DNA of 64,000 bases from positions 1,426,001-1,490,000 of the forward strand of contig JAQGEQ010000363.1 of assembly GCA_034620365.1 (NCBI GenBank), in the 5' to 3' direction. The translations under genes were made by a program, and so were the position numbers. The stretch's first letter is position 1; the number at the start of each line of letters is the position of its first letter. This document shows positions 40,277-63,100 of the stretch, piece by piece. This DNA is from Pegea sp. RAD2-039. Lineage: Eukaryota; Chordata; Thaliacea; Salpida; Salpidae. The notes beneath the pieces are model-generated. The model ran no database searches, had not been told where the DNA came from, and saw only the letters and a list, made by a program, of their open reading frames with translations.

Positions 40277-42985
40277 AACTTCTCTTCTTTCCTTTCAACG
40301 AAAACGTATTATGCCTTTACGAAGCTTAGACTTTTTTATCGTTGATTCGATTACTTCTTAGCTAAATATTTTTCGAAAAGTTTCTTTGCTTTTTTTTTTG
40401 CAACATTTTTTTTGTAAAAAAATTTGTTGTTTTAAATTAAAAAAATTCAAGTGTGTTAACAGAAAAATTTTATTTTATTTTACTTATTGAATCTATTATA
40501 TAGAGCAAAGTTTCTCAACCTCATGCCCATTTATACCTATTTTGACTTCCATGGAAATGTAAAATATTAATAATTGTAATTTCTTCGATTAAATAAGAAA
40601 AAAACAGAGATGCATTTTGTTTCTTCACCGACAATTTATCTTTATATAAGTTGGAAACAAATGATCTAGAGTTACAGCAGTGATTAGATTACTTTATTCT
40701 GTTTGATTTAATAAAAATTAACTTATGATTGAGGATTATCTGAAGAATTTTTTATTAATTACTTTAAATAAAAGACGACTAATATTTTGAGTAAATTTTT
40801 AAATGAAGCCTGATAACTAATAACTTAAGCTTGCTGCTTGTGATTTATGTAGTTTTGCATTAAATATTTTCAAAATATTTCTAATTTTATAAGAAAACAA
40901 AGCATACATCTTAATAATATTTAAACTTCAGTGATTTCATAAATTTATAATAATTAAAGTTACTTGGTTTTAGTTGGTGGCGATGAATATCTACAATTGC
41001 TATATGAAATCTTTTTACTAACAGTTTTAACATAAAAATATGTTAAGTAATCGTTATAACCATATGTATATTTAACAATAGTTTTCTGGTTGTCTATTTT
41101 ATTTAAGATCTAGTTTTTTCTTGAAAAGAATTCTTGATTCAATTTACTTTTCGTTTAAAATTGATTTTTACGGACTTGAACCATCTTTGTTTGTTTTGCA
41201 TGATTTTCGGAAGCATTTTTTTATTTTGAGTTGACTTCTTTTATGATAATTTAATTTACGTTGGCTGTAAATTTTTGTACCCCGAGACTTCAGTATTGAA
41301 TAAGCTAAATTTTCTCAATGACTTTTTAAGTTAAATAACTTGCATTACCTAAAATTCAGACATATTGCATCAGCTGCACTAAAAATATACACTATTGTTT
41401 TTCCTGGAATTTTAAAAGATTATTTTTCTAATGGCTAATTTACTCGGCTCTAATCTTGTAAATACACTAATAAAAAATTATTCTAATTTTGACCTAAGAC
41501 TTTTTATTATGCAAAGAAAATAGTCGTTTTTAAACATATCTAAAAATTTAATTAAATTACTGTTGTGTAGCTACTAACGCTAATTCGCGATTACCATAAA
41601 AAATTTGCGTTAGTTTAGTTAACATCTTGTTGCTCATAAAGTATAAGTGACGCCCTGAAGTCAGTTTCTCCAGTTAACTGGTTTTGAGGTTTTCTCAGAT
41701 CTCTATTATCAGTGGTTTTTTATCCTCAAGAATGTTCAAATTTGGTCTTATATTTGTCGAAAAATATCTGCTTTGTTTCAAAGAATTTTTAGGTTTTATC
41801 AGCTTAAACAGATGGTTAACTTTTAAGCACCGTTTATCATTAAACATGTGTAATATAACATCTGTTTTGTTTTATTCATTAAATATTTAAATCTTATTCA
41901 AATTAAACATGTGAAAAAAATTGATGACTAAAATCAAAATTAGCAAAAATTGCTTTTTTTTACAGAACTGCTGATTCAACGTAATTAGTTCAAAATTTTA
42001 TTTAGAAAATCATTCAATTAAGTACAAAGGAAGTAATTTATAACTTAATATTTCCTCACTTAAATTTTGTTTCATATTTCATAAAACTTTTATTTATTAA
42101 AAATCGAAATTTTATTTCAATAAAACTAGTTAAGTTTTTATTTTAGAAAGTGTTATTTTTTAATTTAAATTCAGATTTTTTTTTTCATTAAGTTCACAAA
42201 ATAATTAAATTAATTACTAGTTGGTATCTTACTCTATTATCCAAAACAGTTTTAAATGTTTATAATTTGTTTATTGTTATACATTAGGTTTAAGCTTTTA
42301 TTTAGAATTAATCTAATTAAAACAATTCTTTCTTGTGTATTTGCTTTGAAGTTAATCATTAATTTTAATTGATTCTTTTAAGTTAATCAGCATTTTTCAA
42401 GTCATTTTGTAATTTACAATTTTTTAGTAATTCTAAATTTAGTAATAATTTTCATTCTGTTTTGTAAATGATTAATAGATAAAGTTTTAATTTTATTGCA
42501 CATAAATTAGTTGAGAATAATTTTTTAAATACAATTTTAATTGTAGTATAATAATTATTATTCAATAATATTTTTCACTTTTTTTTGAACATTTGACTTG
42601 TATCTAAAAAAAATAGAATTGTTTATTTTAATGTAAACAGAAAAGGTTAGAAAATTTTTTAATCAGAATTTTATATTTAAGTTAATAACCTTTCTAATAT
42701 TTATTTAATTTTTTTATTTTAAGCATTTATATAATAAATAAAGATTGATTAAGAACTTATTACTACTAGTTGTTGATTATTATTTTAATAAACTGGCCTA
42801 ATGCAAGCCTTTGTGAAATATTTTATTTATATGTATTAGAAATAACTTATTATGAAAAGAGAAATTTTTTAGAGATAGATTATTATAAGTTTTTAATTAA
42901 CAAAATTAGTTATTAATGAATTTCTAAATATCTATACTAATTTTCAAAACTGAAAGATGATGTTATTGATAAATTAAATTTTTAG
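40277..42985. other. Intergenic region ENO4-integrin alpha
   Basis: About 2.7 kb of very AT-rich sequence with long T and A runs. A splice-acceptor-like TTTTTAG sits immediately before the integrin ATG at 42986, so a non-coding 5' exon may lie upstream. No other feature was recognised. Confidence 0.45.
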
Positions 42986-45900
42986 ATGTTCACAGAAAAT
43001 TTTCTTTCAAAAAGAATGAAATTCAATAAATCCTTTGTAATTTTAACTTATTTAACTATATTCAGTCTTTTACTAAATATTGCAACCTCATATAACATTG
43101 ATGAAAGATTTCCAGTCATCAAACAAGGAGCAGAAGGGAGCTTATTTGGATTAGCTGTCTCTCAGCATCACTTAAAAGCAAAAGTATCTTCTCTAAATGA
43201 AGTTACTCTATTAGTTGGGGCTCCTAAAGCTAAAACAACTGGATCTTCGATTGTGACTGGTGGACTTTTTAAATGTCCGATTAGTTCACAGACAGATGAT
43301 TGTAAGTTGGTAAAAGTAGAAGAAAAAGTTGAAGATAGTCAAAATGATCAGTGGTTAGGTGTAACAGTTGAATCTGAAAAACCTGGAGGAAGAATAGGAG
43401 TATGTGCACACCGAAGAATTTCAGACAATTTGATAGATACACTTTTTGGTAGATGTTTTATATTAAGAAGTAACCTCACACTTTCTGATAACCCCCCAAT
43501 CAACCCATGTGGAAACTCAGCTGAACTAACTGTTACACAAGACACTTATAAATATTGTCAGGCTGGAACATCATTAGCATTTAAAAAAGGTGAGAATGCA
43601 AACACTTGTTACTTTGGCTTGCCTGGTGCTTACCACTGGACTGGTACAGTTGGAATTGAAGATATAATTGATGATGCATTTCTAGATAGTGGTAAATTGC
43701 AACCAATAGGTGTAAAACAACTTAAAATTCATGGTATATTGAAAAACAGCTACTTGGGTTTTTCTGTTGTCACAGGTAATTTATCTATTAATAAGCCAAT
43801 TTACGCTGTTGGTGCTCCAAGATTGAATGATACAGGGGCAGTTGTTATATTTGAAACAAAAGAAAAAACAATGACTTTTGAGAACATTTTACTAGGTGAG
43901 TTAGTTGCTTCTGCTTTTGGATATGCTGTTGAGCTTGTTGATATAAATGGTGATGGAAGACAAGATCTTATTGTTGGAGCTCCTCAATATTATGACAGAA
44001 TAAGAGATTTTGGTGGAGCTGTTTATGTTTATTTAAACAAGGGTATAGATAGATTTGAAACTAAGTATGATCAAAAAATTCCAGGTGGAATTGATTCAAC
44101 ATTTGGTAATTCAATTACTAATTGTGGTGATTTAAATATGGATGGTATAAATGATGTAGCTATTGGAGCTCCTGGAGCTGATGATGGTTCTGGTGTGGTT
44201 TATATATATCATGGTGGTTCAGATGTTAATAAAGGACTTAAAGAGTCACCAGCACAAGTTATTAAAGCAACTGCTTTGTATGAAAATGGACTAGTTAGTG
44301 CTCCATTAATCCGGTTTGGTTATTCTCTTAATGGTGGACTGGATATGGATTTAAACAAATATCCTGACTTATTAGTTGGATCATTATCAGATGTAGCAAT
44401 TTTGTTTAGAAGTAGACCTATCATTAACATTCAAGCTTTCTTAAACTCTACACAAAATAGTTTAGTGTTTGACAATGAAAAATCTAACAAAGTATCACCA
44501 GTTATTAGTGTTTGTATGAATTATACATCTTTACCTGGTTATAATGAAGTTATAGAAATCTCTTATAACCTAACATTAGACAGTAAAACTAATTTAAATC
44601 AGCCAAGAGTTTCTTTCAAAAAGTATAAGAGTCATTCTGTTTATGAATCAAAATTGAAATTAACAGGACAGTCAAAAGTAAGTTGTTCAGAAGTCCCCAT
44701 CTATTTACAAAAGAATATTGTTGACAAGTTATCACCAATCAATATCTTGCTTGCTTATCACATCAAAGAAGCAAAACACAGAAGCAAGAGAGATGTAGTT
44801 TCATTATCAAACTATCCAGTTTTAAACAATGATTTATCAAAGAATGTAAGCTTAAGTCTAAACATATCAAAAGATTGTGGTACAGATTATGTTTGTAATA
44901 GCAATTTGCAATTTAATTGTAAATATGTTGAAAAATCTAATTCAGTATGGAAAGACTTTCCTAAAAGTAAAGATGACATTCCAGTTCTAGTTTTAGGAAA
45001 ACAGAAGGATTATGGGATAAGTTTTGAAGTAAGTAATACTGGTGAGGCTGCTCATCAATCAAAGCTAATGGTTAGCTTACCTTTTGGCGCTAACTTTGAT
45101 GGAGTTACACTTGATCAGCTTTTGTCTTTTGAAAATGGCACTTATGTTGAATTTGATCTTGGAAACCCACTAAAAACAAATGAAAAACTGTCGTTTGTGA
45201 TGACATTTTCAACTAGTAGTGATCTACTTCTAGATGATAAATTATTCACCAAAATGCATATTCAAACATCAAGTACTCAAGCTCCAGTTAAAGATGTAGA
45301 ATTACTTTTCAAGGTACAAGTAGAAGCTCATTTAGAAGTTTTATCTTCAGCAAATCCACCACAAATTAGGCCAAGTGGAGTTGTGATTGGTGAATCAGCT
45401 GTGAAAAAACCAAGTGATGTTGGAATCATAATTGTACATTCGTATGAACTTCATAATAGAGGAACTACTGATCTAGAAAATCTCAAGTTTCAAGTTTCTT
45501 GGCCTTCTCAACTCCAGAACCAAAAATGGCTCTTTTACTTTCTGGAACATAAACTGGCAGAAGTTGGTAAAAATGGATCAAATAGTCTTGTTTGTGATAT
45601 TCCATCAAAGCTAAATCCTTTGAATTTGAAACTTGAAGAAGATTCTAATCGAAAAAAGCGTGATTTAAGTGGTGAATCTTCTCCTTTATCCCTGAAAAAT
45701 CCACAATCTAAGTCGAACACTAATCATTCCAATATAGTTTGTCCAAAATCTGACGGCTGTGTTGATTTTACATGTGATTTATCTCATATTTTAGCGGGTG
45801 AGAAAATATCAATTGATTTTTATGCTGTCGTGTGGAACAGTACATTTATAGAAGAATTTAACAGACTTTTATACACTGTCAGTGTCGGTTCAAGTTTACG

Positions 45901-46192
45901 TTTAGATAACTCCAAGAATGTGATCAAATATACAAGTGATTCAATTACAAGTTCAAGTGTTTCTACTGATGTAATTTCATCTTATACTAAACCTAAACAA
46001 CAAACCAACTTTTGGGTAATTGCTGCTGCTGCTCTAGCTGGTATAATAGTCCTTGTTTTACTTATTCTCATTTTGTGGCGTTGTGGATTCTTTCAACGTA
46101 AAAGAGACTTTGGGGGTTATCACAAAGCTAGATATCACAAACAAGCATCAAAGTCTGCTGAAGAAGCTTCTCAACAAATACTTTATAATTAA
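42986..46192 (+). CDS. Integrin alpha subunit, copy 1 (single exon)
   Basis: Integrin alpha subunits pair with beta subunits as surface receptors for matrix or cell ligands. One frame of 1068 aa from the ATG at 42986; a second ATG at 43016 would give a cleaner signal peptide (FNKSFVILTYLTIFSLLLN). Next comes a seven-bladed FG-GAP propeller (about residues 35-490) with calcium loops DINGDGRQD and DLNMDGIND and a degenerate third (DMDLNKYPD). There is no inserted I domain. Thigh and calf domains follow, with a furin-type site RKKRDL near residue 893 for heavy/light chain cleavage, as in non-I-domain alphas; another basic site (RSKRDV) lies near 604. A membrane helix at about 1010-1035 precedes a short tail with GFFQR in place of the usual GFFKR. 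Residues 110-303 differ strongly from copy 2 while the rest is nearly identical. The subfamily cannot be fixed. Confidence 0.95.
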   Translation: MFTENFLSKRMKFNKSFVILTYLTIFSLLLNIATSYNIDERFPVIKQGAEGSLFGLAVSQHHLKAKVSSLNEVTLLVGAPKAKTTGSSIVTGGLFKCPISSQTDDCKLVKVEEKVEDSQNDQWLGVTVESEKPGGRIGVCAHRRISDNLIDTLFGRCFILRSNLTLSDNPPINPCGNSAELTVTQDTYKYCQAGTSLAFKKGENANTCYFGLPGAYHWTGTVGIEDIIDDAFLDSGKLQPIGVKQLKIHGILKNSYLGFSVVTGNLSINKPIYAVGAPRLNDTGAVVIFETKEKTMTFENILLGELVASAFGYAVELVDINGDGRQDLIVGAPQYYDRIRDFGGAVYVYLNKGIDRFETKYDQKIPGGIDSTFGNSITNCGDLNMDGINDVAIGAPGADDGSGVVYIYHGGSDVNKGLKESPAQVIKATALYENGLVSAPLIRFGYSLNGGLDMDLNKYPDLLVGSLSDVAILFRSRPIINIQAFLNSTQNSLVFDNEKSNKVSPVISVCMNYTSLPGYNEVIEISYNLTLDSKTNLNQPRVSFKKYKSHSVYESKLKLTGQSKVSCSEVPIYLQKNIVDKLSPINILLAYHIKEAKHRSKRDVVSLSNYPVLNNDLSKNVSLSLNISKDCGTDYVCNSNLQFNCKYVEKSNSVWKDFPKSKDDIPVLVLGKQKDYGISFEVSNTGEAAHQSKLMVSLPFGANFDGVTLDQLLSFENGTYVEFDLGNPLKTNEKLSFVMTFSTSSDLLLDDKLFTKMHIQTSSTQAPVKDVELLFKVQVEAHLEVLSSANPPQIRPSGVVIGESAVKKPSDVGIIIVHSYELHNRGTTDLENLKFQVSWPSQLQNQKWLFYFLEHKLAEVGKNGSNSLVCDIPSKLNPLNLKLEEDSNRKKRDLSGESSPLSLKNPQSKSNTNHSNIVCPKSDGCVDFTCDLSHILAGEKISIDFYAVVWNSTFIEEFNRLLYTVSVGSSLRLDNSKNVIKYTSDSITSSSVSTDVISSYTKPKQQTNFWVIAAAALAGIIVLVLLILILWRCGFFQRKRDFGGYHKARYHKQASKSAEEASQQILYN

Positions 46193-46970
46193 TTGTATCA
46201 ACGTTTTGTGCTAGTTAAAATTTGCTTGAACATTTTGTTCGAATTTTTTTTCTTTAATCAGTTTCCAATATTTCTTTTTTGTGTCACGCCTTTTGATTTT
46301 CAATCAAAATTTTATTGATATTTCATATACGTTATTAGTCTAATTCTCCTCAATTTTACATTTAATTTACAAAATTTAGTCCTTATTTTCCAAAAAAATC
46401 TTCTCCCTAATGATGATACTGCACTCTACCCGGTTTTTTTTCATTAGTTCTTATCATTAGCTTTAAAAGTTGCATTTATCATTAATATAAAATAAAAATG
46501 ACTTTCTAATTGTTTACAAACTTTGCAAATGGTGTTTGAGTTCTCGTTCTGATTTATTTTACTAATTAATTCTAATTTGTCTCCAGCAAACTGTACTATT
46601 CATATGAAAACTAGCTGTTTTTGAATTAGTTTTTTATAATCATGATTGTAGTAACTTCAAATATTTGAAACATAACTCACAATACTTTACAAACTTGAGT
46701 CGTTTGTACAATTCAAATGTTTATTTATCGTTTTATGTAACAAATTTCGGCTTTTGTATGCATATATATTAGTAATAAATTAGTTTCTTTTGTTTAGTGC
46801 TTTAATACTTTCAGTTTTATCTAATTTTAGGATTAATGAATGCAGTTTAAAAGTATTCTCTTTTGTGCATAAATATTTCGATATTTTATTTTACTGACTC
46901 TAAATGTCAGGTTTCACGCATCTACAACAAGTGTGTTATTTAAAATAGTGTTGAAGCTATTAGCAATGCT

Positions 46971-47180
46971 AAAATCATTACAATTATTTAGCAATTTCAA
47001 AACTTACTGACATAAACTGTGCCTTTTATTTGGTACGCAAGTTTATGGTACTTATTGCATAAGAGGCTTTTTGTTTTTTTATATTTTTAGTGTTAAAAGT
47101 CGTGATATTTGGCGTGAACTAGTCTTGGTTCTTATGCTGCCCTATTTACTTTATTTGCTTCTCTACTTTTATGAATAAAT
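46971..47180 (+). repeat. 210 bp block shared with the second integrin gene (copy 1)
   Basis: Matches 59026-59235 over 210 bp with a single mismatch by eye. It ends in ATGAATAAAT, a likely polyadenylation signal, and lies 778 bp after the stop codon. The sequence between stop and block is unrelated to the other gene. Probably the distal 3' UTR. Confidence 0.9.
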
Positions 47181-50100
47181 GAAAAAAATTTAATTTGATT
47201 TTTTAATGACTACGATTATTTTAACTCTTACTTTGGAAGTTAAAAACTTTGTTTTAATTTTATTTTCAAATTAACTATTTAAACATTTTTAAGGTTTATT
47301 TATAAAACAGGTTTCAGTTTGAAAAATTGAATTTAAACGATTTTTGATATGTTTGCTTTTGTGAAATTTATTTAATAACTTTCATTCTTGATCAATTTCA
47401 ATTTTGTAATTGATGTCCAAATTTGAATGTCTTAGAACGAATTTGTTTTGAATTATTTGTTGATAAATTATTATTTTTAGCATTTATTTGGTGATTAGTT
47501 GTTGTATAAACAGACTTGATATCTGTCATTACAACTTTCTGAAAATATTTCTCAAGGAGTGCTGATAATCTTAATGATAATAAATTGTTTATTTTCGGTA
47601 AATATTCGCATTTGTAAAGACTATTTCTTCTCTAAGCTCTTTGTGACTAGAAATTATAGTTGAAAAATTCCAAAAACCTATTTTAAGTTTAATTTCAATA
47701 ATTTATTTATAACTTGAAAATTTCAGTCTTAACGCTTCAATGTATGTAGTTCCTTATTAGGTGAAATTGCTGATAATAATCATTTTCTAATCTCTTATCT
47801 CTCTTAGAATTTTTTGATTTCAAAATTTTTAAAAGTATCATATCATGAACGGATAAAGCGGTTAACATTACTATTCAGTAAACAGTTGAAATTCTAAAAA
47901 TCTTTTCTAGGACTTTAAAAATTCAATTTAATATTTGAAAGATGGCAGCTAAAAAAAACTCTTAAATAAACATCTAAGCTCAATATATTGAAGTTTGAGA
48001 TAAAAACTTTAAACAAAAGCTATTAAACCTATTCTTATCAGATTTAATTCATTATGAATCATACTTCAATAAGAGTTACACATAAATTGTATCTACAGTA
48101 TTGAAGTAATCGTAACACAAACATAACCGCATTCTTAAAACTACCATATGTAACTTCCATATTAGGAGCTCTAAACTTTTCTAACAAGCTTTTGATTAAG
48201 GAGAAATTGAATAATTGTAAAGTTGTACATGATAAAGTTTTAATTCATATAATACTTATTCTCATGTTAATTATTTATATCTTTACCTACTGTAAAAATC
48301 GATACGAGCTTTTGCCACTCAAATTTGTTTTCAACTTGATCTTGAAATAAGCAAACCAATTGAATTACAGATGTTAACTTTCATCTGTTTTCCGATTTGA
48401 TTTTACAAAATAAACTTTGGATGTTTTTTTGTCAACAAATATGAAACAAACTTTCCAAAATATAAAATAATCTAGTTTGCCATCAAATCAGAAATTTCTC
48501 AGCTGTTATGAAATAAAAATATTCTATTTAAGATAAACATTTATTACTTAAAAATATTTTTCTTGTCTATGAATATATTTAGTAAATATCTAAACGTTTA
48601 GCAATCAACTAAGTATAAATATTATCGTAAACTTAAACTTTTAGTAGTTTTAAAGAAAACTTTTTGGGTTGTTATGTCATAAAATTTTGCTTTATTTAAA
48701 ATTTATTCTATTGATACGATTTTAGTGTTTAATATAAACTAATTTAATAACAAGATTAGAATTGATTACACATTGTCGTTTTAAAGCTTCTTCAAGAAAG
48801 TTAAAATGAAACAAAACAAGTTCCAGTTTAATATACTCTAGCTTTTGATTGCAATTAACTCAAAATTATATTTCAAGATAAAAATTAACTTTGATGAATG
48901 TAAACTTTTAGAGATAAGTTTGTTTTTTCCCAAGAGGTTTACTAAAAGCTTTTGGTTAATTCAATGTCAACTTTAGTTGATTTAGTGTAAACTTGAACAT
49001 TAACTTTTTAGATAAATATTTATTAAGTACAAATGTTTCTTATGTAATTAAGCAAATGTTTTTATATTTAAACTATTTTAACATCACTAATGCAAATTTG
49101 TCAACATATTTTTAATTAAACATTTTTTAAACTCTTGTTTTACTACGCTAACTTCAAATAAAAAATGTTAAGTTTAAAAACCATCGTTGATAAAAAGCCA
49201 TAATAAGTTTGAAGATTTGATTTTGTAATAAACAGAATACTTGTTAATAAATATTTTAAATAATATGTAAACAGATATCAAGGATATTAATATTTAAGCC
49301 TCTTATTTTAACAAACCTTTTATTTTGTTATCACAATTATTTTCTTAACTTCTTTTTAATTTTTTTACTTTATAAATCAATTTTGGATAAAAATTATTTG
49401 TGTTCGTATTCAATTTAAACAATCAACTTCAATATATAGCCTTGTGAAATATTTAGAATTGAGTTTATCTCTAGGGACAACACCATCAAAACCACATAAT
49501 TTAATCTCGGTCATTCAAAATATTTTAAAAGATTAATTTGTAATTTTTTTAATCTTTAAATCTTGTCTTAATTTATTCATTCTTTCTTTGCTATAACTAA
49601 AAAAGTAAATTTATTTGTAATCATCTGCTAAATAAACCCAGAAAAACTTACGTTTTGTTTGCTAAGCCAGAGAAGGCAAATACTAAAAAATTTATATCAG
49701 ATATACTTCAATATACCTAATTGTTACAAATCTGAAAAAAGTTTACTCAGAATTGGAACTCAAACTAGAGAATCAATCGAGTTGTCATAAAAACCAATAA
49801 AGTGTTTACTAAACTAACAGTTTAAATTTTTAAGCAGCTTTTAAAATCTAAGTTAAATAAGATTATGAAAAGATTCATTGTTTGAAATATTAATAAGATA
49901 AAATTAATATTCCGCAAACTATTTTTAAAAAGTTCAAAATTTTATCGACTAATAAATTAATGTGCACTAGCTGTGGCAGGCTGAAAGAGTGAACTTCTTA
50001 AGGTTTTAAAAATGAAAAAACTTAAAGATAGAAAAATTATTTTCCAATTTTATTAAAACTATTTTGAGCTTGCATTTTATCTTATTATCTTACTAAAAGA

Positions 50101-51589
50101 CCAAATTAAATTACAAAATTATAGCAATATAAAACGTCAATGTTTTCGAAATAAGGATTTGAAAAAATTTGGCTGGATATTCAATCAGCTAGTTTTTGTT
50201 ACAATATTTTTATGCCACCAATAAGAGTAAACTTATCATCAAGAATAACTTTGATTGTTATTCGAATTCTATTTTAACCAGCTATTTTAAATTATTTATC
50301 AGACTATTACTAAGACAGTATATTACTAAGGTGTTGTTGTTGCTTCTTAACTCCAATGAAGTAAGTCATGCTGATAAAATCAAATTTTCTAGTGCTCAAA
50401 GTCAAAGCACAAATTTAGTAGAAAAAGTAAATAGATACTCAAAAAATATTGATAAACATCACTTGAAACTCTTTTTTAATTATTCATATCTCTATTGGAT
50501 GACTTTCGAACAACAGAAAGCTAGTTGTTTATCTACTTTTTAGAATAATTTTTTAATCTTAAATAAAATTTATAGCATCGTTCAGTTGAAATAATATAAG
50601 ACTTTTTAATAGATAAATTTGGTTGAGCTGAAATTTTTAAACATTTTTGAATTTAATGGGTGAAAGTATTTATCAAAAAGTTGTTAACGAAATTAAAAAA
50701 ATGTTTTTATAGTAGAGTTTCTCAACCTTAAACTTAATTTGTTTTCAGAATTATTCAAAATTAAAAACTTATTATAATTAATTGAATCTTGTCTATTTTT
50801 CACGACAAGGCTTGTGACTAATGTTTAAATGGCTTGAGTGTGCTCTTTGGCGGCACATTTTGATAAAAAAACTAACTAGGAGGATTTGGCATTGCAGTAT
50901 GAAAACTAGCTTGATTATTATAATAACTTAATAGATAATAACCAATATTGATAATTTGTAACAAGATAAATTTTATTGTTTGTGATTCTACATCCTAGCT
51001 TGCCGTTTCAAAGAGCTTACCAGTTCAATTAAGACGCTTTTCTAATGAAGGAATCTTTATACTGTAAGTATTTATTTGGATAATTTATAATGATCATTAT
51101 TTATAAGTAGCTTACATATATACTTTTAAATCACGGAATTCATAATAGTTCAAACAATTGTCTGATAATTATGTAAAAACTTACAGTTTTCCTTTGGTTA
51201 GGTTTTTCAAGAAAATAACTATTTAAATCAATTGATTTTATTTATTTATTCAAAGTCGATTAAGGAAAATTTCATTCACAATATTTTTGTTTAGTGCGCT
51301 TATTTTTATAATTTTGTTTTAATTAAGTCTTATATTATTTAATGTGTCAAGTCTTTACTTGTAGGATTTATTTTAGACGCTGCCTCTGAAGATAATTAGC
51401 AGTATAATTTTTATAATTTGAACCTTGAAAACCACTTGATGCCCTTGAATTTGTCTTTATATAAATAAAATTAGAATTAAATTAAGATGATGTCATTTTC
51501 AATTACATGTTAGAGGTAGTTTACTGACTTTTTAATATTTTTAGGTATATTTTTTACTTATATGATGAAATTTACAGACAGCATTTAGA
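47181..51589. other. Long AT-rich intergenic region between integrin copies
   Basis: About 4.4 kb with no recognised gene. An open stretch of 115 codons at 50196-50543 has no ATG at its start and no recognisable domain, and is best explained by chance. A TTTCTCAACC word near 50710 recurs near 40510 and may come from old mobile DNA, but no element can be delimited. Confidence 0.45.
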
Positions 51590-54310
51590 ATAAAAGACGA
51601 AAGTATAAGCCACAAAAATACGCTCCAAAAAATATTGCAAGTATGTCGTTGTGGATTGACGACGTAATATACTTGAATAAGGTCATGCTCTATTTGAATA
51701 GGGCTTGTAAGTATTCAAACATCAAATTTTGGGATTATATAAATTCTCTCTTGTGACATAGATCCATTTAAAGAAAGGTTCCAATGCACCGGCTATCAAC
51801 TGAAGTATGCTCAGGTAGATAGCATCAATAATAAGAAAGCGTCAGGAGTACAATTTATCTACCTACTATGAATTTTCGATTTATTCTAAATGCAGAATGA
51901 TCAAAAAAAAGTCTGTGGCTTCATCAACTTAATGATTATTAAACCACTTTAAACCTGCTTTGCACTGTTTTTAACTTACATGTAAATTCCCCCTAAAGAT
52001 TAATACCTCTCTACCCCCCCCTTTAAATGGAAATACATGCTTAATAAAGGGCTATCTTTACAATCTTTCTAAGATAATTTCATCTGAGCTCTAAACAATT
52101 CTATTCAATAGTTTATATCATTAAGAGCTTCCTTTCAACCCAATCATATCAAGACTTCACCTCACATTAAACGCATCACATCAAATGAAAAGCATATCTT
52201 AAACAAAAAATGTAAAGTGGAGAATTACTATAAAGCATTATAGAAGGTTAAGTGCTAAGAATATGAAATTCAAGTTGGCATGATTACAGAAGAATTAAAA
52301 CTTCATATAAACTAAATTAAATTTCAACTCAATTACATCACCTCTTATTGATGAAAATTGAAATTTTTATCTTTGTGAAGTTAAAAAAAAAAGAATTATT
52401 CAGCTTAATGTTTTTAAAGGCCTAGAATTATTAGGCCTTAATTATTATATTCTTAAAGCAAGGAAATCAAATCTAACAGATGATTTTGGTAACAATTCTC
52501 ACTGCAGTCCACATTATCATATCTACTGTCCACAATATCATATCTACTGTCCACAATATCATATCTGCTGTCCACAATATCGTATCTACTGTCCACAATA
52601 TCATATCTGCTGCCCACAATATCGTATCTGATATCCACAATATCATATCTGATGTCCACAATATCATATCTACTGTCCACAATATTAAAGACAAATTAAC
52701 TTATACATCAGAAAAAATTCCTTATTATCTTGTAGCTCTTAATAACTCTGTCATACAGTCTCTATGTTTTACATGTCTTTAATTCTTCATTATTTTTCAG
52801 TTTTATAACTTTCCAATAAAAGAGTTCTACTACAATTCTAGTCCATAAGAGAGGAGACAGAATTAAGCCATTAAAGTACAGATCCATTTTCTCCTTAAAA
52901 TCTTACTTTCTATTTATCAATTTAGGTTTTTTCCTCGTAGTTTCTCAGGTGATCAGGTGTTGTCCTTTCTCCACCAGTGGCCATGTTCTTCAGCAAATAG
53001 TTTAATGCTATTATCATTTATACAGACATTTACAAAGCTTTTGTACATTTTTATTTATGCAAATCTCATTTTAATGAAAACTCTCAGGCAATTTAATATT
53101 AACTCTACTCTTATCTCTTAGATTAAACGATTTGTTTAAGATGGACACCGACAAGTCATCATCAATAACTTTACTTCAAGTTTTCTTGGGGTTTTAATAG
53201 TTTCACCAAAGACAGCATTATTGGTCCTTTTGTATTCAATATTTATACCAATAACAACACGCAACTTTCCTCATTACTAAAAGGTACTGGAAATTTAATG
53301 CTTTTTACCGATGATAGCAAACTCTTTAGTATTAAATCCATTACTCTTTAATCCTTTTTGGAGTCTAGTAGCTAACAGCTTTAATCTACTCAAACGAGCA
53401 AACGAACAATCGACAAATGAATTCACCTTTCCATAAAAAACTCAAAATTCCATCCCAATATTATCTTATTTTTATCTATACAACAATTTCCGAATGTCAG
53501 ATGATTTAAGACTTAGAAAACTTCAAATCTCACGATAAAAATATGCTAGCCACGTTGAGTAGTTACTCAGAATTGGTTCATCTACTTCACACCTAACTCT
53601 TAAATCTTTTAAACCTCAAATATTTTGATACTTTTAAAACTTTTCACCATATACATTTACAAATTAGAGTTCAACTTCTCCGTTTAAAGCCCTCGCCTTG
53701 CGAAAGGTAAAGCTTGAATCCGTCCAAAGATAATTTAATAGAAAAGCTACCCTTAGATTTGGTTTACCTTTTTCTTAACAAAAAAACTGTCTCTATTAGC
53801 TTAATATTACATGCTTGCAATATCGATTTTTTTTCCGACATCAAACTACTATTATAACTATTAATGATCGAACTTTTTTATACACCCTCAGGGCTCATAA
53901 TTTAAAGTAACCCAATTAACAACCATTATAACACCAAGTGGAGTAGCAGCCTTTCCAATAGGATAACCAAGGCTTAAAATTTTCTTCTAGTCTCAATCAC
54001 TATGTATTAAAATATCTCTTTTAAGAAAACCTCGTTTAAAAATATGGTCAAATCAATTTCCTTAACAAGTGATATATAAAACTGCCAGTTTTTCATTTAA
54101 TCTCTCGCTTCGTTATATTGAATTTTTGATTCATAATTTATATTTTACTTATTTCTTTTCAGTGTTTCTATTCTTGTTATACTAATTATGCTAAATTGTG
54201 TTACTTAAAACTTCTTTATTATCGTTATTCTCAAATCGTTTTGTGTTCGTCATAAAAGCTGTATAATTTGTCCGTTGCAGGCGTGGTTTAAATAAATTAG
54301 ATAAATTAAA
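51590..54310 (+). mobile_element. LINE family A, longest relic
   Basis: The most complete of three related copies. From about 51930 it parallels 35045-36170, then continues through RT motif A (IYTDIYKAF near 53018), motif B (an IIGPFVFNIYTN-like stretch near 53220-53260), motif C (LFTDDSKLF near 53300-53330) and the long C-terminal region, ending in an AAATAAATTAGATAAATTAAAT-like tail near 54290. All frames are broken many times, so it is inactive. The stretch 51590-51930 may be the end of an ORF1 with an esterase-like fold, but this is weak. A 21 bp minisatellite has expanded inside it. Confidence 0.78.
52507..52685 (+). repeat. 21 bp minisatellite inside the LINE relic
   Basis: Eight 21 bp units plus a partial ninth, consensus GTCCACAATATCATATCTACT. 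The sister LINE copy has a single corresponding site (CTGTTGTCCACTATATAAAAGAC near 35655-35680), with matching flanks on both sides. The array therefore arose from one unit in the element after insertion. Confidence 0.93.
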
Positions 54311-55426
54311 TGAATAAACAAATAATTATTACGACAAACTTAACACACTTGGCACTGAAGAACTTCTTGATATTTAGTGCACTAAAAGTTTGTGGAACAA
54401 TTTTTCATTTGAGTGTTCTAAATTTTATCGCTATATAATTTTTCATTTAAATTTCAGAATAATATAAAAAAAAATTAAAAATTAGCAAATGCTGTATTTC
54501 ATCTATTGCAATCACTATTTTTTCCTATTTTATATAAAATTCCAATCGATTTTAGATTTAAAAAATTTTTATAAACAAAGCAAATTAGTTTTAATTGGAG
54601 CAAAGCTGCAGATAATCGTTTTATAGATAAGCCAAAATAGTTTACATAACCCAATTCGAACTATTTGCTAGCAACTACCACTAGCCGGATTTACCTTGAA
54701 GAGAAACGTCATATTTTCTGACATTTTCAAAAGATTATACCTGTGCTCATTTTAGGCAGTTAGCACATCTCATTTCTTTGCAATTTTCTGAACTTTATGA
54801 TTTTATTGGGTATAAGAGATCATATTATCAGAGTTAAAGTATAGTTAATATATTAAAAATTATTTTATTTAAATTTTGTTTCATTTACATTTATTTTCTA
54901 AGATTTTATTTTGTAAAACATTTTGTACTTTGATATTTTTTATTTTTGAAGCTTTTCTGAGCAAGTAAATAATTGTTTGAAATGAAACTTTTTTGGCAAT
55001 AATTTATTATTGCATTCCCTTAATGACAAATATTTTTTACTTTATTTTTATTTCATGAATGACAAATAATTTTTACCTTTTTTTCAAATTCTTAAGTTTT
55101 TTGTTTATTATATTTTCATCTGATTAATCTGTTGATAAATTTTGTAGCTATTTAATGATAGAAATAAGAAATTTAAAATCAAGAAGCTGTAACATTTAAA
55201 AACTCATCTATAACATATCTTACTAAATGTTTTGGCAGAATCATTCCTGGCAGAATCATTCCTAATGAAAACTTTTTTTTCAAAAAACAGAAACTTTGTT
55301 TCAAATAAATAAAATTTAAATGACTTCTTTTAAATTCAAGAATTTGCTTTAAAGAATTGTTTGTATAAAATCAAAGAGTTTATTATCAAAACTATTTTTT
55401 CAGAAAAATACTTTTATAAGTATAAG
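54311..55426. other. Region upstream of integrin copy 2
   Basis: About 1.1 kb of AT-rich sequence. A short GGCAGAATCATTCCT word is repeated in tandem near 55235-55262. A splice-acceptor-like TTTTTTCAG at 55394-55402 precedes the first ATG at 55427, so a 5' exon is possible. Nothing else was recognised. Confidence 0.45.
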
Positions 55427-58400
55427 ATGAAAATAAAGCCTGGTTATGCCTTGCCAATTTCAAATATAAAATTTGAATTTGTTAAATCTTTAGTAACTTT
55501 AACTTATTTAACTATATTCAGTCTTTTACTAAATATTGCAACCTCATATAACATTGATGAAAGATTTCCAGTCATCAAACAAGGAGCAGAAGGGAGCTTA
55601 TTTGGATTAGCTGTCTCTCAGCATCACTTAAAAGCAAAAGTATCTTCTCTAGATGAAGTTACTCTATTAGTTGGGGCTCCTAAAGCTAAAACAACTAGAT
55701 CTTCGATTGTGACTGGTGGACTTTTTAAATGTCCGATTAGTTCACAGACAGATGATTGTAAGTTGGTAGACATTGACAAAACTACAAGTGATAATATTCC
55801 TCAGGATGACCAGTGGTTAGGGGTCACAGTTGAATCTGAAAAGCCTGGAGGAAAAATAGGAGTATGTGCACACCGCTGGGAAGCATTTAAAACACCTGGA
55901 AGAAAACGTGAAATAGATTCACTTTTTGGAAAATGTTTTATTCTAATGAGTGATGGTACACCTATTCCTAGTCTAGCACCCCTTAAACCTTGCACAAGTC
56001 TTAATTCAGACTCTAAAGTTAGTGTTGATAAGTATAAATATTGTCAGGCTGGTACTTCATTTGCTTTTGAGATGGGTATTAAAGGAGAGGCTTGTTATAT
56101 CGGGATGCCAGGCTCATATGGTTGGAAGGGTACAATTGGTTCTAATGACTTACGTGATGATATGTTTATAAACACTGGGCTAAATCATATTAGTAATCAA
56201 ACTTTAAACAATTTTGGAATTCCACGTAATAGCTATTTGGGATTTTCTATTACTACAGGAGTTTTTTTAAGTGGGCAAGCAGTTTATGTAACCGGAGCAC
56301 CACGTTTAGATGAAACTGGTGCTATAGTACTTGCATATACAAATAGAAATACTATGTCATTACAAGAAATTATTTATGGTGAGTTAGTTGCTTCTGCTTT
56401 TGGATATGCTGTTGAGCTTGTTGATATAAATGGTGATGGAAGACAAGATCTTATTGTTGGAGCTCCTCAATATTATGACAGAATAAGAGATTTTGGTGGA
56501 GCTGTTTATGTTTATTTAAACAAGGGTATAGATAGATTTGAAACTAAGTATGATCAAAAAATTCCAGGTGGAATTGATTCAACATTTGGTAATTCAATTA
56601 CTAATTGTGGTGATTTAAATATGGATGGTATAAATGATGTAGCTATTGGAGCTCCTGGAGCTGATGATGGTTCTGGTGTGGTTTATATATATCATGGTGG
56701 TTCAGATGTTAATAAAGGACTTAAAGAGTCACCAGCACAAGTTATTAAAGCAACTGCTTTGTATGAAAATGGACTAGTTAGTGCTCCATTAATCCGGTTT
56801 GGTTATTCTCTTAATGGCGGACTGGATATGGATTTAAACAAATATCCTGACTTATTAGTTGGATCATTATCAGATGTAGCAATTTTGTTTAGAAGTAGAC
56901 CTATCATTAACATTCAAGCTTTCTTAAACTCTACACAAAATAGTTTAGTATTTGACAATGAAAAATCTAACAAAGTATCACCAGTTATAGATGTATGTAT
57001 GAATTATACATCTTTACCTGGTTATAATGAAGTTATAGAAATATATTATAACCTAACATTAGACAGTAAAACTAAATTAAATCAGCCAAGAGTTTCTTTC
57101 AAAAAGTATAAGAGTCATTCTGTTTATGAATCAAAATTGAAATTAACAGGACAGTCAAAATTAAGTTGTTCAGAAGTCCCCATCTATTTACAAAAGAATA
57201 TTGTTGACAAGTTATCACCAATCAATATCTTGCTTGCTTATCACATCAAAGAAGCAAAACACAGAAGCAAGAGAGATGTAGTTTCATTATCAAACTATCC
57301 AGTTTTAAACAATGATTTATCAAAGAATGTAAGCTTAAGTCTAAACATATCAAAAGATTGTGGTACAGATTATGTTTGTAATAGTAATTTGCAATTTAAT
57401 TGTAAATATGTTGAAAAATCTAATTCAGTATGGAAAGACTTTCCTAAAAGTAAAGATGACATTCCAGTTCTAGTGTTAGGAAAACAGAAGGATTATGGGA
57501 TAAGTTTTGAAGTAAGTAATACTGGGGAGGCTGCTCATCAATCAAAGCTAATGGTTAGCTTACCTTTTGGCGCTAACTTTGATGGAGTTACACTTGATCA
57601 GCTTTTGTCTTTTGAAAATGGCACTTATGTTGAATTTGATCTTGGAAACCCACTAAAAACAAATGAAAAACTGTCGTTTGTGATGACATTTTCAACTAGT
57701 AGTGATCTACTTCTAGATGATAAATTATTCACCAAAATGCATATTCAAACATCAAGTACTCAAGCTCCAATTAAAGATGTAGAATTACTTTTCAAGGTAC
57801 AAGTAGAAGCTCATTTAGAAGTTTTATCTTCAGCAAATCCACCTCAAATTAGGCCAAGTGGAGTTGTGATTGGTGAATCAGCTGTGAAAAAACCAAGTGA
57901 TGTTGGAATCACAATCGTACATTCGTATGAACTTCATAATAGAGGAACTACTGATCTAGAAAATCTCAAGTTTCAAGTTTCTTGGCCTTCTCAACTCCAG
58001 AACCAAAAATGGCTCTTTTACTTTCTGGAACATAAACTGGCAGAAGTTGGTAAAAATGGATCAAATAGTCTTGTTTGTGATATTCCATCAAAGCTAAATC
58101 CTTTGAATTTGAAACTTGAAGAAGATTCTAATCGAAAAAAGCGTGATTTAAATGGTGAATCTTCTCCTTTATCCCTGAAAAATCCACAATCTAAGTCGAA
58201 CACTAATCATTCCAATATAGTTTGTCCAAAATCTGACGGCTGTGTTGATTTTACATGTGATTTATCTCATATTTTAGCGGGTGAGAAAATATCAATTGAT
58301 TTTTATGCTGTCGTGTGGAACAGTACATTTATAGAAGAATTTAACAGACTTTTATACACTGTCAGTGTCGGTTCAAGTTTACGTTTAGATAACTCCAAGA

Positions 58401-58675
58401 ATGTGATCAAATATACAAGTGATTCAATTACAAGTTCAAGTGTTTCTACTGATGTAATTTCATCTTATACTAAACCTAAACAACAAACCAACTTTTGGGT
58501 AATTGCTGCTGCTGCTCTAGCTGGTATAATAGTCCTTGTTTTACTTATTCTCATTTTGTGGCGTTGTGGATTCTTTCAACGTAAAAGAGGATTTGGTGGT
58601 TTCCACAAAGCTAGATATCACAAACAAGCATCAAAGTCTGCTGAAGAAGCTTCTCAACAAATACTTTATAAGTAG
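55427..58675 (+). CDS. Integrin alpha subunit, copy 2 (single exon)
   Basis: Paralogue of the gene at 42986-46192 with the same domain order: signal segment, FG-GAP propeller with two good calcium loops, thigh, calf, RKKRDL cleavage site, membrane helix and GFFQR tail. The first ATG in frame is at 55427, giving 1082 aa; the frame is open further upstream without an ATG. Near-identity to copy 1 holds over 55498-55768 and 56378-58671, with about a dozen amino-acid differences, several in the cytoplasmic tail (RGFGGF against RDFGGY). Between them, 55769-56377 encodes a quite different set of blades 2 to 4 with only islands shared, such as QWLGVTVESEKPGG and YKYCQAGTS. The extreme N-terminus before TLTYLTIF also differs. 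Presumably the two receptors share beta partners and signalling but bind different ligands; this is inference. Confidence 0.95.
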   Translation: MKIKPGYALPISNIKFEFVKSLVTLTYLTIFSLLLNIATSYNIDERFPVIKQGAEGSLFGLAVSQHHLKAKVSSLDEVTLLVGAPKAKTTRSSIVTGGLFKCPISSQTDDCKLVDIDKTTSDNIPQDDQWLGVTVESEKPGGKIGVCAHRWEAFKTPGRKREIDSLFGKCFILMSDGTPIPSLAPLKPCTSLNSDSKVSVDKYKYCQAGTSFAFEMGIKGEACYIGMPGSYGWKGTIGSNDLRDDMFINTGLNHISNQTLNNFGIPRNSYLGFSITTGVFLSGQAVYVTGAPRLDETGAIVLAYTNRNTMSLQEIIYGELVASAFGYAVELVDINGDGRQDLIVGAPQYYDRIRDFGGAVYVYLNKGIDRFETKYDQKIPGGIDSTFGNSITNCGDLNMDGINDVAIGAPGADDGSGVVYIYHGGSDVNKGLKESPAQVIKATALYENGLVSAPLIRFGYSLNGGLDMDLNKYPDLLVGSLSDVAILFRSRPIINIQAFLNSTQNSLVFDNEKSNKVSPVIDVCMNYTSLPGYNEVIEIYYNLTLDSKTKLNQPRVSFKKYKSHSVYESKLKLTGQSKLSCSEVPIYLQKNIVDKLSPINILLAYHIKEAKHRSKRDVVSLSNYPVLNNDLSKNVSLSLNISKDCGTDYVCNSNLQFNCKYVEKSNSVWKDFPKSKDDIPVLVLGKQKDYGISFEVSNTGEAAHQSKLMVSLPFGANFDGVTLDQLLSFENGTYVEFDLGNPLKTNEKLSFVMTFSTSSDLLLDDKLFTKMHIQTSSTQAPIKDVELLFKVQVEAHLEVLSSANPPQIRPSGVVIGESAVKKPSDVGITIVHSYELHNRGTTDLENLKFQVSWPSQLQNQKWLFYFLEHKLAEVGKNGSNSLVCDIPSKLNPLNLKLEEDSNRKKRDLNGESSPLSLKNPQSKSNTNHSNIVCPKSDGCVDFTCDLSHILAGEKISIDFYAVVWNSTFIEEFNRLLYTVSVGSSLRLDNSKNVIKYTSDSITSSSVSTDVISSYTKPKQQTNFWVIAAAALAGIIVLVLLILILWRCGFFQRKRGFGGFHKARYHKQASKSAEEASQQILYK

Positions 58676-59025
58676 CAGAAGTTCTTTTTTAACCTTTTTA
58701 CTAATATTTTTAAAGCTTACTGAAATATTTTTGTCACTTTTTTGTGTTTTTATTTTCTCCTATATTGCCTAAGCTATTTCTAAATCTTTATAATTTTTTT
58801 TATTTCTAACTTTGCAGTAAAGCTTTTACCTTAATATCATAAAAAACAAATCACTTTATTGTTTTGAAATCTGTCAATTTTCTTACTTTTGATAGTGTAG
58901 ATTGCCAATTGAGTTGATATTTTATATGTGTCTTAATGCTATTAACTTCTTATGCAAACTGTTGCTGAATTTTCTTTACACGTCATCAAACCATCTCGAT
59001 TAACAAGCCTGAAGATTCTTAAGTT

Positions 59026-59235
59026 AAAATCATTACAATTATTTAGCAATTTCAAAACTTACTGACATAAACTGTGCCTTTTATTTGGTACGCAAGTTTA
59101 TGGTACTTATTGCATAAGAGGCTTTTTGTTTTTTTATATTTTTAGTGTTAAAAGTCGTGATATTTGGCGTGAACTAGTCTTGGTTCTTATGCTGCCCTAT
59201 TTACTTTATTTGCTTCTCTAATTTTATGAATAAAT
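59026..59235 (+). repeat. 210 bp block shared with the first integrin gene (copy 2)
   Basis: Counterpart of 46971-47180, with one mismatch, only 350 bp after the stop codon. It ends in ATGAATAAAT, a likely polyadenylation signal. The 350 bp before it have no similarity to copy 1. Confidence 0.9.
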
Positions 59236-60113
59236 AATAATTTTAATTTTATTTCATTAAATGTTAATTAGATTTTAATTTTTGATTAAAAATTGCGATT
59301 TCTTTTTTGATGAAAATAATTTCTATTTTATCTGAAAAAATTTTCAAATTTGTTTCAATTTTTGATGAAAAAATTTTCAAAGAATTTTTTTGATATTTTT
59401 CATCTTTCGTTTCTGGTATGTTCACTCACGCGTGAAAAAAAGCATAAAATAGACTTCTTTCATACAAATCACCGAAGCTATAAACTCCTATTTCGCAAAT
59501 AAACATATTTATGTAATTTTTCAGCGAATTAAATTTCAAATGTTGAAATAACTTGAAACTATCCTCATCTTTACATTATTCTGATCTTTTTAACTTTCTT
59601 ATTTTTTAATTTTTTGCTTTCAAATAACAACTTTTTTGCTATCAGCATTTTTATGGTTCAATTGTTTTGAATAAAAAATGTGAATATAATTGAAAAAAAA
59701 AATTCGAACAAATCAGTTGATGACGTCATCATGAAATTTGTCGAAAGTATTTTAAATAGCTCGAGTAGCCTTAGGTGTAGATGACGTCACACAAGCAGAT
59801 ATCATCACATGAGATTTATTGAAAGAAGTACGTTATGAAAATGTACCAGATAGTCAGCACAAGTCTATAAATAAGATCTAGAGAGCTTCGAAAAGATGTT
59901 TCGCGCTTTTTGGTCGTTTCCATTCGGACGAAAAAATCATCAAAATAAAAAAATAGAAAAAGTTCTGAATATTAGGAAGCTATAAAAATGTGCAAGAAAA
60001 ATTCGGGTGGCTCTAAACATCAATTTCTTTTCTTAGAGGATGATAGGATTGACGAGGAGTCTTCTTGCTTTGTGTCTGATGAATAAAATATCAGTGAAAG
60101 ATCTTAAAGATCT
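59236..60113. other. Convergent interval between integrin copy 2 and ATF6
   Basis: About 880 bp containing the ATF6 3' UTR. An AT-rich part with short imperfect TTTTTGATGAAAA-type repeats (59280-59410) gives way to a GC-richer part with two TGACGTCA palindromes (near 59717 and 59781). No gene was recognised. Confidence 0.45.
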
Positions 60114-63100
60114 TCATTCAGTTGCACCTTGATTCTTGTCGAAGCCACGTGGTAGCAGATCACGTAACACGCGAAGATAGTTGCTGGAGTTGACCTCACA
60201 GTCGATCTTGATCATTGTTAACTCGTCTTCACCCGCAAATGTGTCTGCAGATAAAAACAAGATGAAAAGATGATTAAATTCTCAAATCTTACCGTTAGGT
60301 GGAGCTGCAGAAAAGAGTAGAGATAGTTTGGTTTTTGATGAAAGATTTTTGACCAATGGAGGGAGCAAAAGATGATCCTAAAGAAGAAGATGAATATTAG
60401 AATGAAGATGAAGATCAAATCTTACTTTTCCTGGAGCAATCACGTAAATTGTATCATTTTCACGACCAAATGCATCCCAAAAAAGTCCCAGATCTTTTTT
60501 CTTCCTGTAAATAGCCGGAGGCTGATTTCTGAATCTCGGAGGCATCTTTCCGGACTTTCGTTTCCGCTTTTTTACATCTGCATCATTTTTCAGATGATGA
60601 CTTATCCACCAATCGAGTTTTAGATTCAACCTGAACAAGTTTGAGGTCATTTACGCAAAATCATTCCGTCATCAGTGGATTTTTGACCAAAAAATTGGTG
60701 ACGTCATTTAGTTGATGTTATCATGGCAACATTAATGACGTCATGATTGTTCTATACTCACTTGTGGTTTTCGGTTCTGTTCGACTCCGTGCAGGGATTT
60801 TCTTTCTGATCACTTGATGGCAGCAAAGATTCATGCTGAAAAGATAATATCTTTGAAGATATCCTTGTGATGAAGATTAGCTCACCTGCTTTGAGCGTAA
60901 TAGTTCCTTATTTAGAGAAGATTTGAGACCTAAAAATGAAGAGTTGAAAAGTGGAAGTTGATCCTTTACTTGATTTTTTCTCAAAATTGAAGCATCAAAG
61001 GGAAGAATTCTAAAGAAAAGTCACGTGGTTAGTTGCTTAGTAGGTCACGTGGTTAGTTGCTTAGTAGACCACGTGGTTGGTTGGTTAGTAGGTCACGTGG
61101 TTAGTTGGTTAGTAGGTCACGTGGTTGGTTGCCTAGTAGACCACGTGGCTAGTTGCTTAGTAGACCACGTGGTTAGTTGCTTAGTAGGTCACGTGGTTAG
61201 TTGGTTAGTAGGTCACGTGGTTGGTTGCCTAGTAGACCACGTGGCTAGTTGCTTAGTAGACCACGTGGTTAGTTGCTTAGTAGGTCACGTGGCTAGTTGC
61301 TTAGCAGGTCACGTGGTTAGTTGATTAGTAGGTCACGTGGTTAGTTGCTTAGTAGACCACGTGGTTAGTTGATTAGTAGGTCATGTGGTTTGTTAGTAGG
61401 TCACGTGGTTGGTTGCTTAGCAGGTCACGTGATTCATTACCTGGCTGGCGAAGTTCTATTTGAATTTTCTGAGATTTCCCTCTTCTCAAGATTGTGAGAA
61501 AGTAGCTTCCGGGAAAAATGGGATGAAGATCCGATGATTATTGGATGTTGCGGAAGACTTCCAGATAGTTGGAAGAAAGGTGAGAAGCTAAAAATACAAT
61601 TTTGGTTGCTAGGATGTGTAACGTGAAAAAGCAACTGCATCAATAACCTACCTGTATGAGAATCCGATAAAGATTAGAATTGAAAATAAAATCAGAGGTT
61701 TTTTCTTTGATATTTCATTCGATCGTGAAAACTAAAACGAAATTATTTCAATTTGTCTGCATCAAGTCTTATTTAAAATTCACTTTTTTAAAAATCTGAT
61801 CTTCATCACTATAATCTTCCAGAAGACGTTGAAGTTGAGGAGATTTGTTGTTCTCCAAATATTCAACTCGCTTCAAAATAAACAAATTAATTTCGATGAC
61901 GTCATCAGCTGATGACGTGGATTCAAACCTCTTTTAACATTTGATTCTCATTTTCCAAGTTAATGATTTGCTACAAAAGATACAAATTAGTTGAAAATTG
62001 ATGAAATTTTCACATCAATTTCACCTCTTTCAACATTTGATTCTCATTCTGTAAATCCACATTTTCTTTCGTGCAACTTTCAATTTGACTTTCCAGATTT
62101 GCTACATGCTGCGGAAGACAACAGTTCGAAACATTCTCATCACGTGACTTACTAACAAACCATTTTCTTCTTCCGCCTTGATTGGTTAGCAGATTCTCGA
62201 TTTTTAATCATACGTTGTTGTTTCTTAATCATCTGCTAACCCAAAAGTTAATTATTTGTTTAATTTTCGATCACTTCTCATACTTCAGCTTCCATCTTGT
62301 TATCACTCATACTATTGCTAGTTGGTGTTGCGCAGAAGGGCGGTTTAAAAGCAGGTATGATCAATTGCTTAGGGCCAGCTAGCGAACCCATAAGCGGCTT
62401 GTTACGACTGATCTGGTCTGAATTTGGTGAATTCGGAAGTATTTTTGTGATAACAACTGGTTTAGTTTGGTCTGTAACAATTTAGTGAGCTGTGAGTGTT
62501 TTGATTGGTCAATTCACCTGAGTTGATTTGGTATGAAGTTTTTAGTTTGATATTTTCCGGTGAAAGTACAATGACAGGTTTGTTTGTAGGTTCCAACTTA
62601 ACTGGTTGAAGATTAGAGATGTTGTTGACAATAACTGGTGACGATGATGACGATGAAATATGAAGCTGAAAACAACAAATTCCTCAATGAAATGATCAAA
62701 TTTGTCAAGTTTCAATTTCTTAATCTTTTTTAGAAGAAAACTGTTGATATTATGCAAATGCTTCCAACTTTGTAACAAATATTTCAAATTTTGGGAAATT
62801 TAACTAAACCGAATATTTGAAAATCTATTTTAACTTCAAGTTGTTGATAATATTTAAATATTTTCTAATGTCCACAAAATTCAGTATTTAATTTAATTTG
62901 AAAATATTTTGAAAAGTTTACTTTTTGATCAGCCTTAATTGCTTGATTATTTGGTATTTGAATGATGGATGAAAGTGGTGTCTTCTTCACTACGACATTT
63001 ACTGGATTTGTATGAGAAACAATACTCTGAAATTGATTGGGTCATTAAAAAGCAATTAGAAGTTGTTTCCTGAATCACTTGCTGAACGTTGTTCGGTTGA

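Follow-up and report, generated by a model that had tools for sequence, protein, structure and literature searches.

In a 64,000-nucleotide stretch of the genome of the salp Pegea sp. RAD2-039, two tandem integrin alpha genes are nearly identical over most of their coding sequence and deeply diverged in one internal cassette, which encodes blades 2-4 of the beta-propeller. This stretch, hereafter the window, is C21:1426001-1490000 of a 105.7 Mb assembly in 387 contigs, and positions below are those of the window unless a contig is named. We consider it probable that the genes are an old tandem duplicate pair in which gene conversion homogenises the islands that can still be aligned and two distinct heads persist.

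Results

Copy 1 (42986..46192, plus strand) is an intronless integrin alpha frame of 1068 amino acids. Copy 2, likewise intronless and in the same orientation about 12.5 kb away, runs from its first ATG over 55427..58675, within an open frame (55361-58675) that counts 1104 amino acids from a TTG at 55361. Both frames are uninterrupted and match the FG-GAP propeller and Integrin_A_Ig_1/2/3 families of Pfam; with a membrane span and a tail, both proteins have the make-up of integrin alpha subunits of the type without an alphaI domain. Each ends in a tail with CGFFQRKR, which we take to be a GFFxR-like motif of integrin alpha subunits. The laminin-binding class (alpha6/alpha3/alpha7) is closest to both copies by sequence, and to the model of copy 1 by fold; the best solved structure by sequence is 7ceb (alpha6) for both. 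Among the matches listed for residues 60-560 of copy 2, the nearest proteins are named alpha-6-like, the nearest named homologues are from tunicates (Phallusia, Ciona, Clavelina and Styela, 40-44%), and the closest of all is a protein designated P0003 (47%). A T-rich run ending in AG, resembling a splice acceptor, lies just 5' of both starts (42981-42988 and 55391-55429): TTTAG directly precedes the ATG at 42986, and TTTTTTCAG sits 24 bp before the ATG at 55427. Judged by their sequence, these runs could mark an intron in the 5' untranslated region (UTR) or a trans-splice site.

The first-pass annotation had described two near-identical blocks, of 271 bp and about 2.3 kb, and pairwise comparison confirms both. 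The 5' island (43027..43312 in copy 1, 55483..55768 in copy 2, plus strand) encodes blade 1 and the late part of the signal peptide; the BLAST match starts at 43027 and near-identity at about 43042, from where 2 bases differ in 271 bp (43042-43312 against 55498-55768). Codons in 43040-43312 carry three nonsynonymous changes and no synonymous ones (0 differences over 65 synonymous sites; synonymous divergence, dS, 0). The 3' island (43895..46189 and 56378..58672, plus strand) encodes blades 5-7, stalk, membrane span and tail, and differs at 24 bases in 2,295 bp without an indel. Here 12.5 synonymous differences fall on 497 sites, and the ratio of nonsynonymous divergence (dN) to dS is low (0.006/0.026). 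Its 21 differing codons form no clear sub-tracts, given the gap statistics (longest gap, p 0.24; sum of squared gaps, p 0.049).

Between these islands lies the cassette, on the plus strand at 43313..43894 in copy 1 (582 bp, 194 amino acids) and 55769..56377 in copy 2 (609 bp, 203 amino acids), and the two versions share 49% protein identity. The method of Nei and Gojobori (NG86) gives a dS of 1.45 or 1.40 in two computations, from 81 synonymous differences over 127 sites, with a dN of 0.43. Maximum likelihood returns a dS of 7.1 and two further estimators gave no value, so that synonymous divergence in the cassette is saturated. A scan of synonymous divergence that was blind to the borders picks 43316-43894 with a log-likelihood ratio of 103.4, while none of 300 codon shuffles exceeds 10.1. 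A chance origin of this step is excluded, as is a single uniform age for the whole gene pair. Synonymous divergence is thus far from uniform along the genes, and the cassette, with a near-saturated dS of about 1.4 against 0 and 0.026 in the islands, is older than the similarity of its flanks, as had been proposed.

Sharp borders, claimed at the same time, are found on one side of the cassette. At the 3' edge the change is abrupt: after the differing codon 43892, none differs until 44333. The 5' edge is less clean and is followed by a moderately diverged stretch (43340..43414, plus strand) in which 6 of 17.0 synonymous sites differ, compared with 75.2 of 109.7 for the remaining cassette; this stretch is possibly an older conversion tract.

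Beyond the coding islands, similarity is patchy. The signal peptides upstream of the 5' island are weakly alignable between copies. Downstream of the stop codons, unalignable sequence of about 780 bp (copy 1) and 350 bp (copy 2) leads to a further plus-strand island, found by self-comparison and absent from the first-pass annotation (46970..47201 and 59025..59254, 97.4% identical), which ends at an AATAAA poly(A) signal and is probably the distal 3'UTR. As to a dispersed-repeat origin, a genome search with this island gave two matches, both of them these copies, and an Rfam search of 46190-47400, in copy 1 only, found no match to a structured RNA at E up to 1. When 40001-49500 is set against 52501-61000, no collinear match appears outside the islands, the only others being of 23-73 bp and AT-rich or out of order. 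Among 300 pairs drawn from 25 proteins, copies 1 and 2 are the sole pair in which backbone identity exceeds cassette identity by more than 20 points (49.5; next, 17.5), in a survey that is weak since its database was clustered at 90% and many rows lack a species name.

The repeat pattern of the proteins places the cassette at blades 2, 3 and 4: it starts after blade 1 and stops just before blade 5. AlphaFold models of the two propellers have mean predicted local distance difference test (pLDDT) scores of 83.5 and 85.1, with low-confidence loops within the cassette, and the best fold match of the copy 1 model is the alpha6beta1 headpiece 7ceb (template modelling score 0.80 by query length). In the alpha6-laminin-511 structure, the alpha subunit makes contact through the II-III loop, the X1 region (I193-L235) and Asn189 (PMC8241838). 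Alignments to 7ceb put the positions homologous to all three inside the cassette, which agrees with the first-pass description of the diverged block as blades 2-4 on the ligand face. At the position of alpha6 Asn189, with numbering counted from the alignment, copy 1 has His and copy 2 has Gly; because this Asn anchor is absent, we make no claim of laminin binding for either copy. The X1-like stretch differs between the two cassettes, and potential N-glycosylation sites number 3 versus 1 between copies. Across 22 homologues, 50 columns reach at least 80% conservation, and the copies agree in 47 of these; of 90 variable columns they share 22. Both heads therefore appear constrained, as far as retention of conserved residues suggests.

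Genome searches, in which match counts are lower bounds, gave no sign of a larger family. With the backbone DNA, both of the scored candidates are copies 1 and 2; cassette 2 DNA gives two matches; and each cassette protein gives three, namely both copies and a third integrin alpha on contig C6, which matches the cassettes at 32% and is the only other full-length cassette match found. The full copy 1 protein gives 10 matches, three of them long (both copies and the C6 alpha) and seven short fragments of other integrin-like genes; among the fragments, one on C284 and, marginally, one on C19 overlap the cassette end at 35-48%. A search for further cassettes within the window found none, with three matches, all at E above 2. 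The first-pass suggestion of a modular receptor-diversity system is not supported: two backbone copies were found, and neither many copies nor a store of cassettes. The C6 alpha (C6:505717-511839, matching at 1501-4623 of this segment) is a single open frame of 1055 amino acids from its first ATG and is 37% identical to copy 1. These laminin-type alphas are intronless, whereas beta-integrin genes, which we group into five loci, match in separate pieces. On C215 (46.9 kb), two integrin-like fragments score equally, at 9138-9335 (minus strand) and 27186-27383 (plus strand), and represent either an inverted repeat or an assembly palindrome.

For the age of the two heads we used 22 of 120 listed homologues (2,882 found), which yields 24 rows in the cassette tree; the first trees included the C6 alpha, which, as a long branch, was left out of later cassette trees and topology tests. 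Copies 1 and 2 are sisters in the cassette tree (support 96/83), with P0003 next (97/93), and the backbone tree also groups the copies. Path lengths in the cassette tree (copy 1-copy 2, 1.69; copy 1-P0003, 2.47; copy 2-P0003, 3.20) make the split of the heads roughly half to two thirds as deep as that from the nearest relative in the sample, and cassette 2 sits on the longer branch (1.21, against 0.48 for cassette 1). In approximately unbiased tests (p-AU), a grouping of copy 1 with P0003 is not rejected (0.34, 0.57 and 0.66), a grouping of copy 2 with the homologue P0011 is rejected (0.035-0.038), and ((copy1,P0003),(copy2,P0011)) is borderline (0.047 and 0.058). Counts of shared cassette residues, taken singly for 22 outgroups and uncorrected, link P0003 to copy 1 over copy 2 (26 against 11, p 0.020) and P0018 likewise (18 against 7, p 0.043), while P0011 leans to copy 2 (17 against 8, p 0.11). 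A general speed-up of one head was considered and rejected, the consensus being shared 8 versus 8 and only P0003 and P0018 of the 22 outgroups leaning to copy 1.

A tandem pair of beta-integrin genes (C258:2078400-2088300, minus strand) contains a 192-bp block that is 94.3% identical (1700-1891 against 7462-7653 of this segment), with 8 of 64 codons differing, 5 of them synonymously; 60-bp windows outside the block are at 0.32-0.72 identity. Judged by eye, this block is a conversion-like tract, and the introns of the beta-integrin genes look GT-AG, whereas in Fritillaria borealis 95% of introns depart from GT/AG (PMC13326754).

Elsewhere in the window, domain searches identify a frame for a Vma12-like V-ATPase assembly factor (15660-16292), a frame with a DALR anticodon-binding domain (30797-32545) and an RRM_7 fragment (1537-1992). 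Self-comparison reveals tandem repeats at 61020-61431 and 52502-52685, with spacings of about 24 and 21 bp, and an inverted pair at 8464-8799 and 34393-34731 (76% identity) is perhaps a mobile element.

Discussion

Homogenised synonymous sites in one region and old ones in another are the signature of regional concerted evolution, and gene conversion acting on an old duplicate pair, the explanation offered at first pass, is the simplest account of this mosaic. An old tandem duplication would have produced two laminin-type integrin alpha genes, and interlocus gene conversion would then repeatedly overwrite one copy wherever enough alignable sequence is left: in blade 1, from blade 5 to the tail, and in the distal 3'UTR. 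Blades 2-4 would escape conversion, leaving two ligand-facing heads on one shared stalk, membrane span and tail, with each copy behind its own unrelated upstream sequence. The shield around the cassette may be selection or plain heterology. We favour conversion on an old pair because every segment outside the islands looks old, whether upstream, in the cassette, in the middle of the 3'UTR or downstream, and because the beta-integrin pair carries a conversion-like block. Moreover, the 5' island ends within signal peptide sequence that is still weakly homologous, which points to a conversion edge rather than a duplication breakpoint. Conversion as the agent, different ligands for the two heads and separate expression of the copies are all things that we infer.

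Several competing histories have to be weighed. If the assembly had joined two alleles or haplotypes of a single locus into a tandem, which the first-pass annotation had named as a danger, the two copies should share flanks; 9.5 kb around one copy and 8.5 kb around the other do not align collinearly outside the islands, so this artefact is very unlikely, even though our analysis is based on the assembled sequence and the opposed C215 matches may be an artefact elsewhere in it. A recent duplication, followed by the transfer into one copy of a divergent cassette and, as a second event, of a different middle segment of the 3'UTR from an unsampled or lost paralogue, could also yield a mosaic. It would explain why the islands are similarly low in divergence, as from one event, and would suit the longer branch of cassette 2. 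This history needs two separate replacements and a lost donor, and the absence of any cassette donor in the genome searches is one reason to prefer conversion; the cassettes are also each other's closest relatives in the best tree, and weak homology runs beyond the 5' island. We regard such an import as unlikely. The slimmest chance goes to two retrocopies of splice isoforms from one parent gene with mutually exclusive cassette exons: the intronless frames, in a genome whose beta-integrin genes match in pieces, and the identity that ends at the stop codon and resumes in the probable 3'UTR fit this idea, but the C6 alpha is also one open frame, so that intron loss need not be specific to the pair, the searches found no parent gene that carries these sequences, and a tandem arrangement in one orientation would be a coincidence.

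The remaining alternatives concern what the heads are rather than how the islands arose. Conversion may be correct and the cassettes may do the same job, having become too diverged to recombine without gaining a new ligand. This overlaps with the reading that we favour; we find it doubtful, yet a serious contender. The abrupt 3' edge, divergence of the propeller strands and a cassette dN/dS below 1 (0.43 against at least 1.4) all suit it, while the differing X1-like stretch, the His and Gly at the alpha6 Asn189 position and the unequal glycosylation sites speak for a difference in function. By analogy with allorecognition or immune receptors, the heads could instead be ancient lineages that predate the species, carried on a repeatedly homogenised chassis, with conversion able to swap whole heads in populations. 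The opposed leanings to P0003 and P0011, spotted after the test, hint at this; the borderline result for the corresponding topology and the sister placement of the heads in the best tree weaken it, and we consider it improbable.

Some observations count against the reading that we favour. All of the evidence comes from one genome. Cassette divergence extends beyond the ligand loops, with 41 of 72 strand residues identical compared with 51 of 109 residues outside strands and helices; since strands diverge too, the sharp edges may reflect the homology needs of recombination and not ligand choice. GC content at third codon positions is flat (islands 0.187 and 0.178, cassettes 0.186 and 0.182), giving no sign of GC-biased conversion. 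A topology that joins copy 2 with P0003 is, like its copy 1 counterpart, not rejected (p-AU 0.22 and 0.24). Finally, because the beta-integrin tract falls within the betaI domain, ligand-facing parts are not generally exempt from exchange in this genome, a caution against seeing selection behind every such border.

Laminin-binding integrins in other animals use X1 and X2 as alternative exons. This X1/X2 choice resembles the salp pair in placing alternative propeller segments at the ligand face of one alpha chassis, and differs in that splicing exchanges about 43 residues (I193-L235 in alpha6; PMC8241838) where the salp has two genes with 194 and 203 residues. In mammalian TLR1 and TLR6, conversion keeps alike a stretch of about 300 residues towards the C-terminus, and the part that binds ligand remains distinct (PMC2077338). 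Those are also tandem receptor paralogues, with the last repeats, membrane span and most of the signalling domain homogenised; their diverged part is N-terminal, whereas ours is internal, flanked on either side by coding sequence that is homogenised; their pattern recurs in nine mammals, ours being known from one genome (PMC2077338). Clustered protocadherins similarly have a C-terminal part of the ectodomain homogenised by regional conversion and diverse N-terminal recognition repeats, in dozens of genes rather than two (PMC1852091). Diverged islands in conversion-held duplicates have been read as targets of selection in red/green opsin and RHCE/RHD (PMC3924837) and in GOT1 of Tigriopus (PMC3728101); in contrast to these, the integrin segment is about 580 bp long and synonymously saturated (PMC3924837, PMC3728101).

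Regional concerted evolution of receptor paralogues is therefore known already, and what is unusual here is an internal, saturated module of whole blades flanked by homogenised coding sequence. A literature search by titles and abstract starts, with subscription papers and preprints outside its scope, found no case of conversion or concerted evolution of integrin genes. If our reading is true, the salp pair would exemplify regional concerted evolution among integrins. It would also be a natural experiment in which the alpha ligand face, blades 2-4, is isolated against a nearly constant stalk, membrane span and tail, so that the role of the alpha head becomes testable with two natural receptors. 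Given two heads, a nearly common stalk, span and tail, and separate upstream sequences, a single signalling receptor could serve the animal for two sets of matrix ligands. This suggests that duplication and conversion may achieve in the salp what exon choice achieves in other animals.

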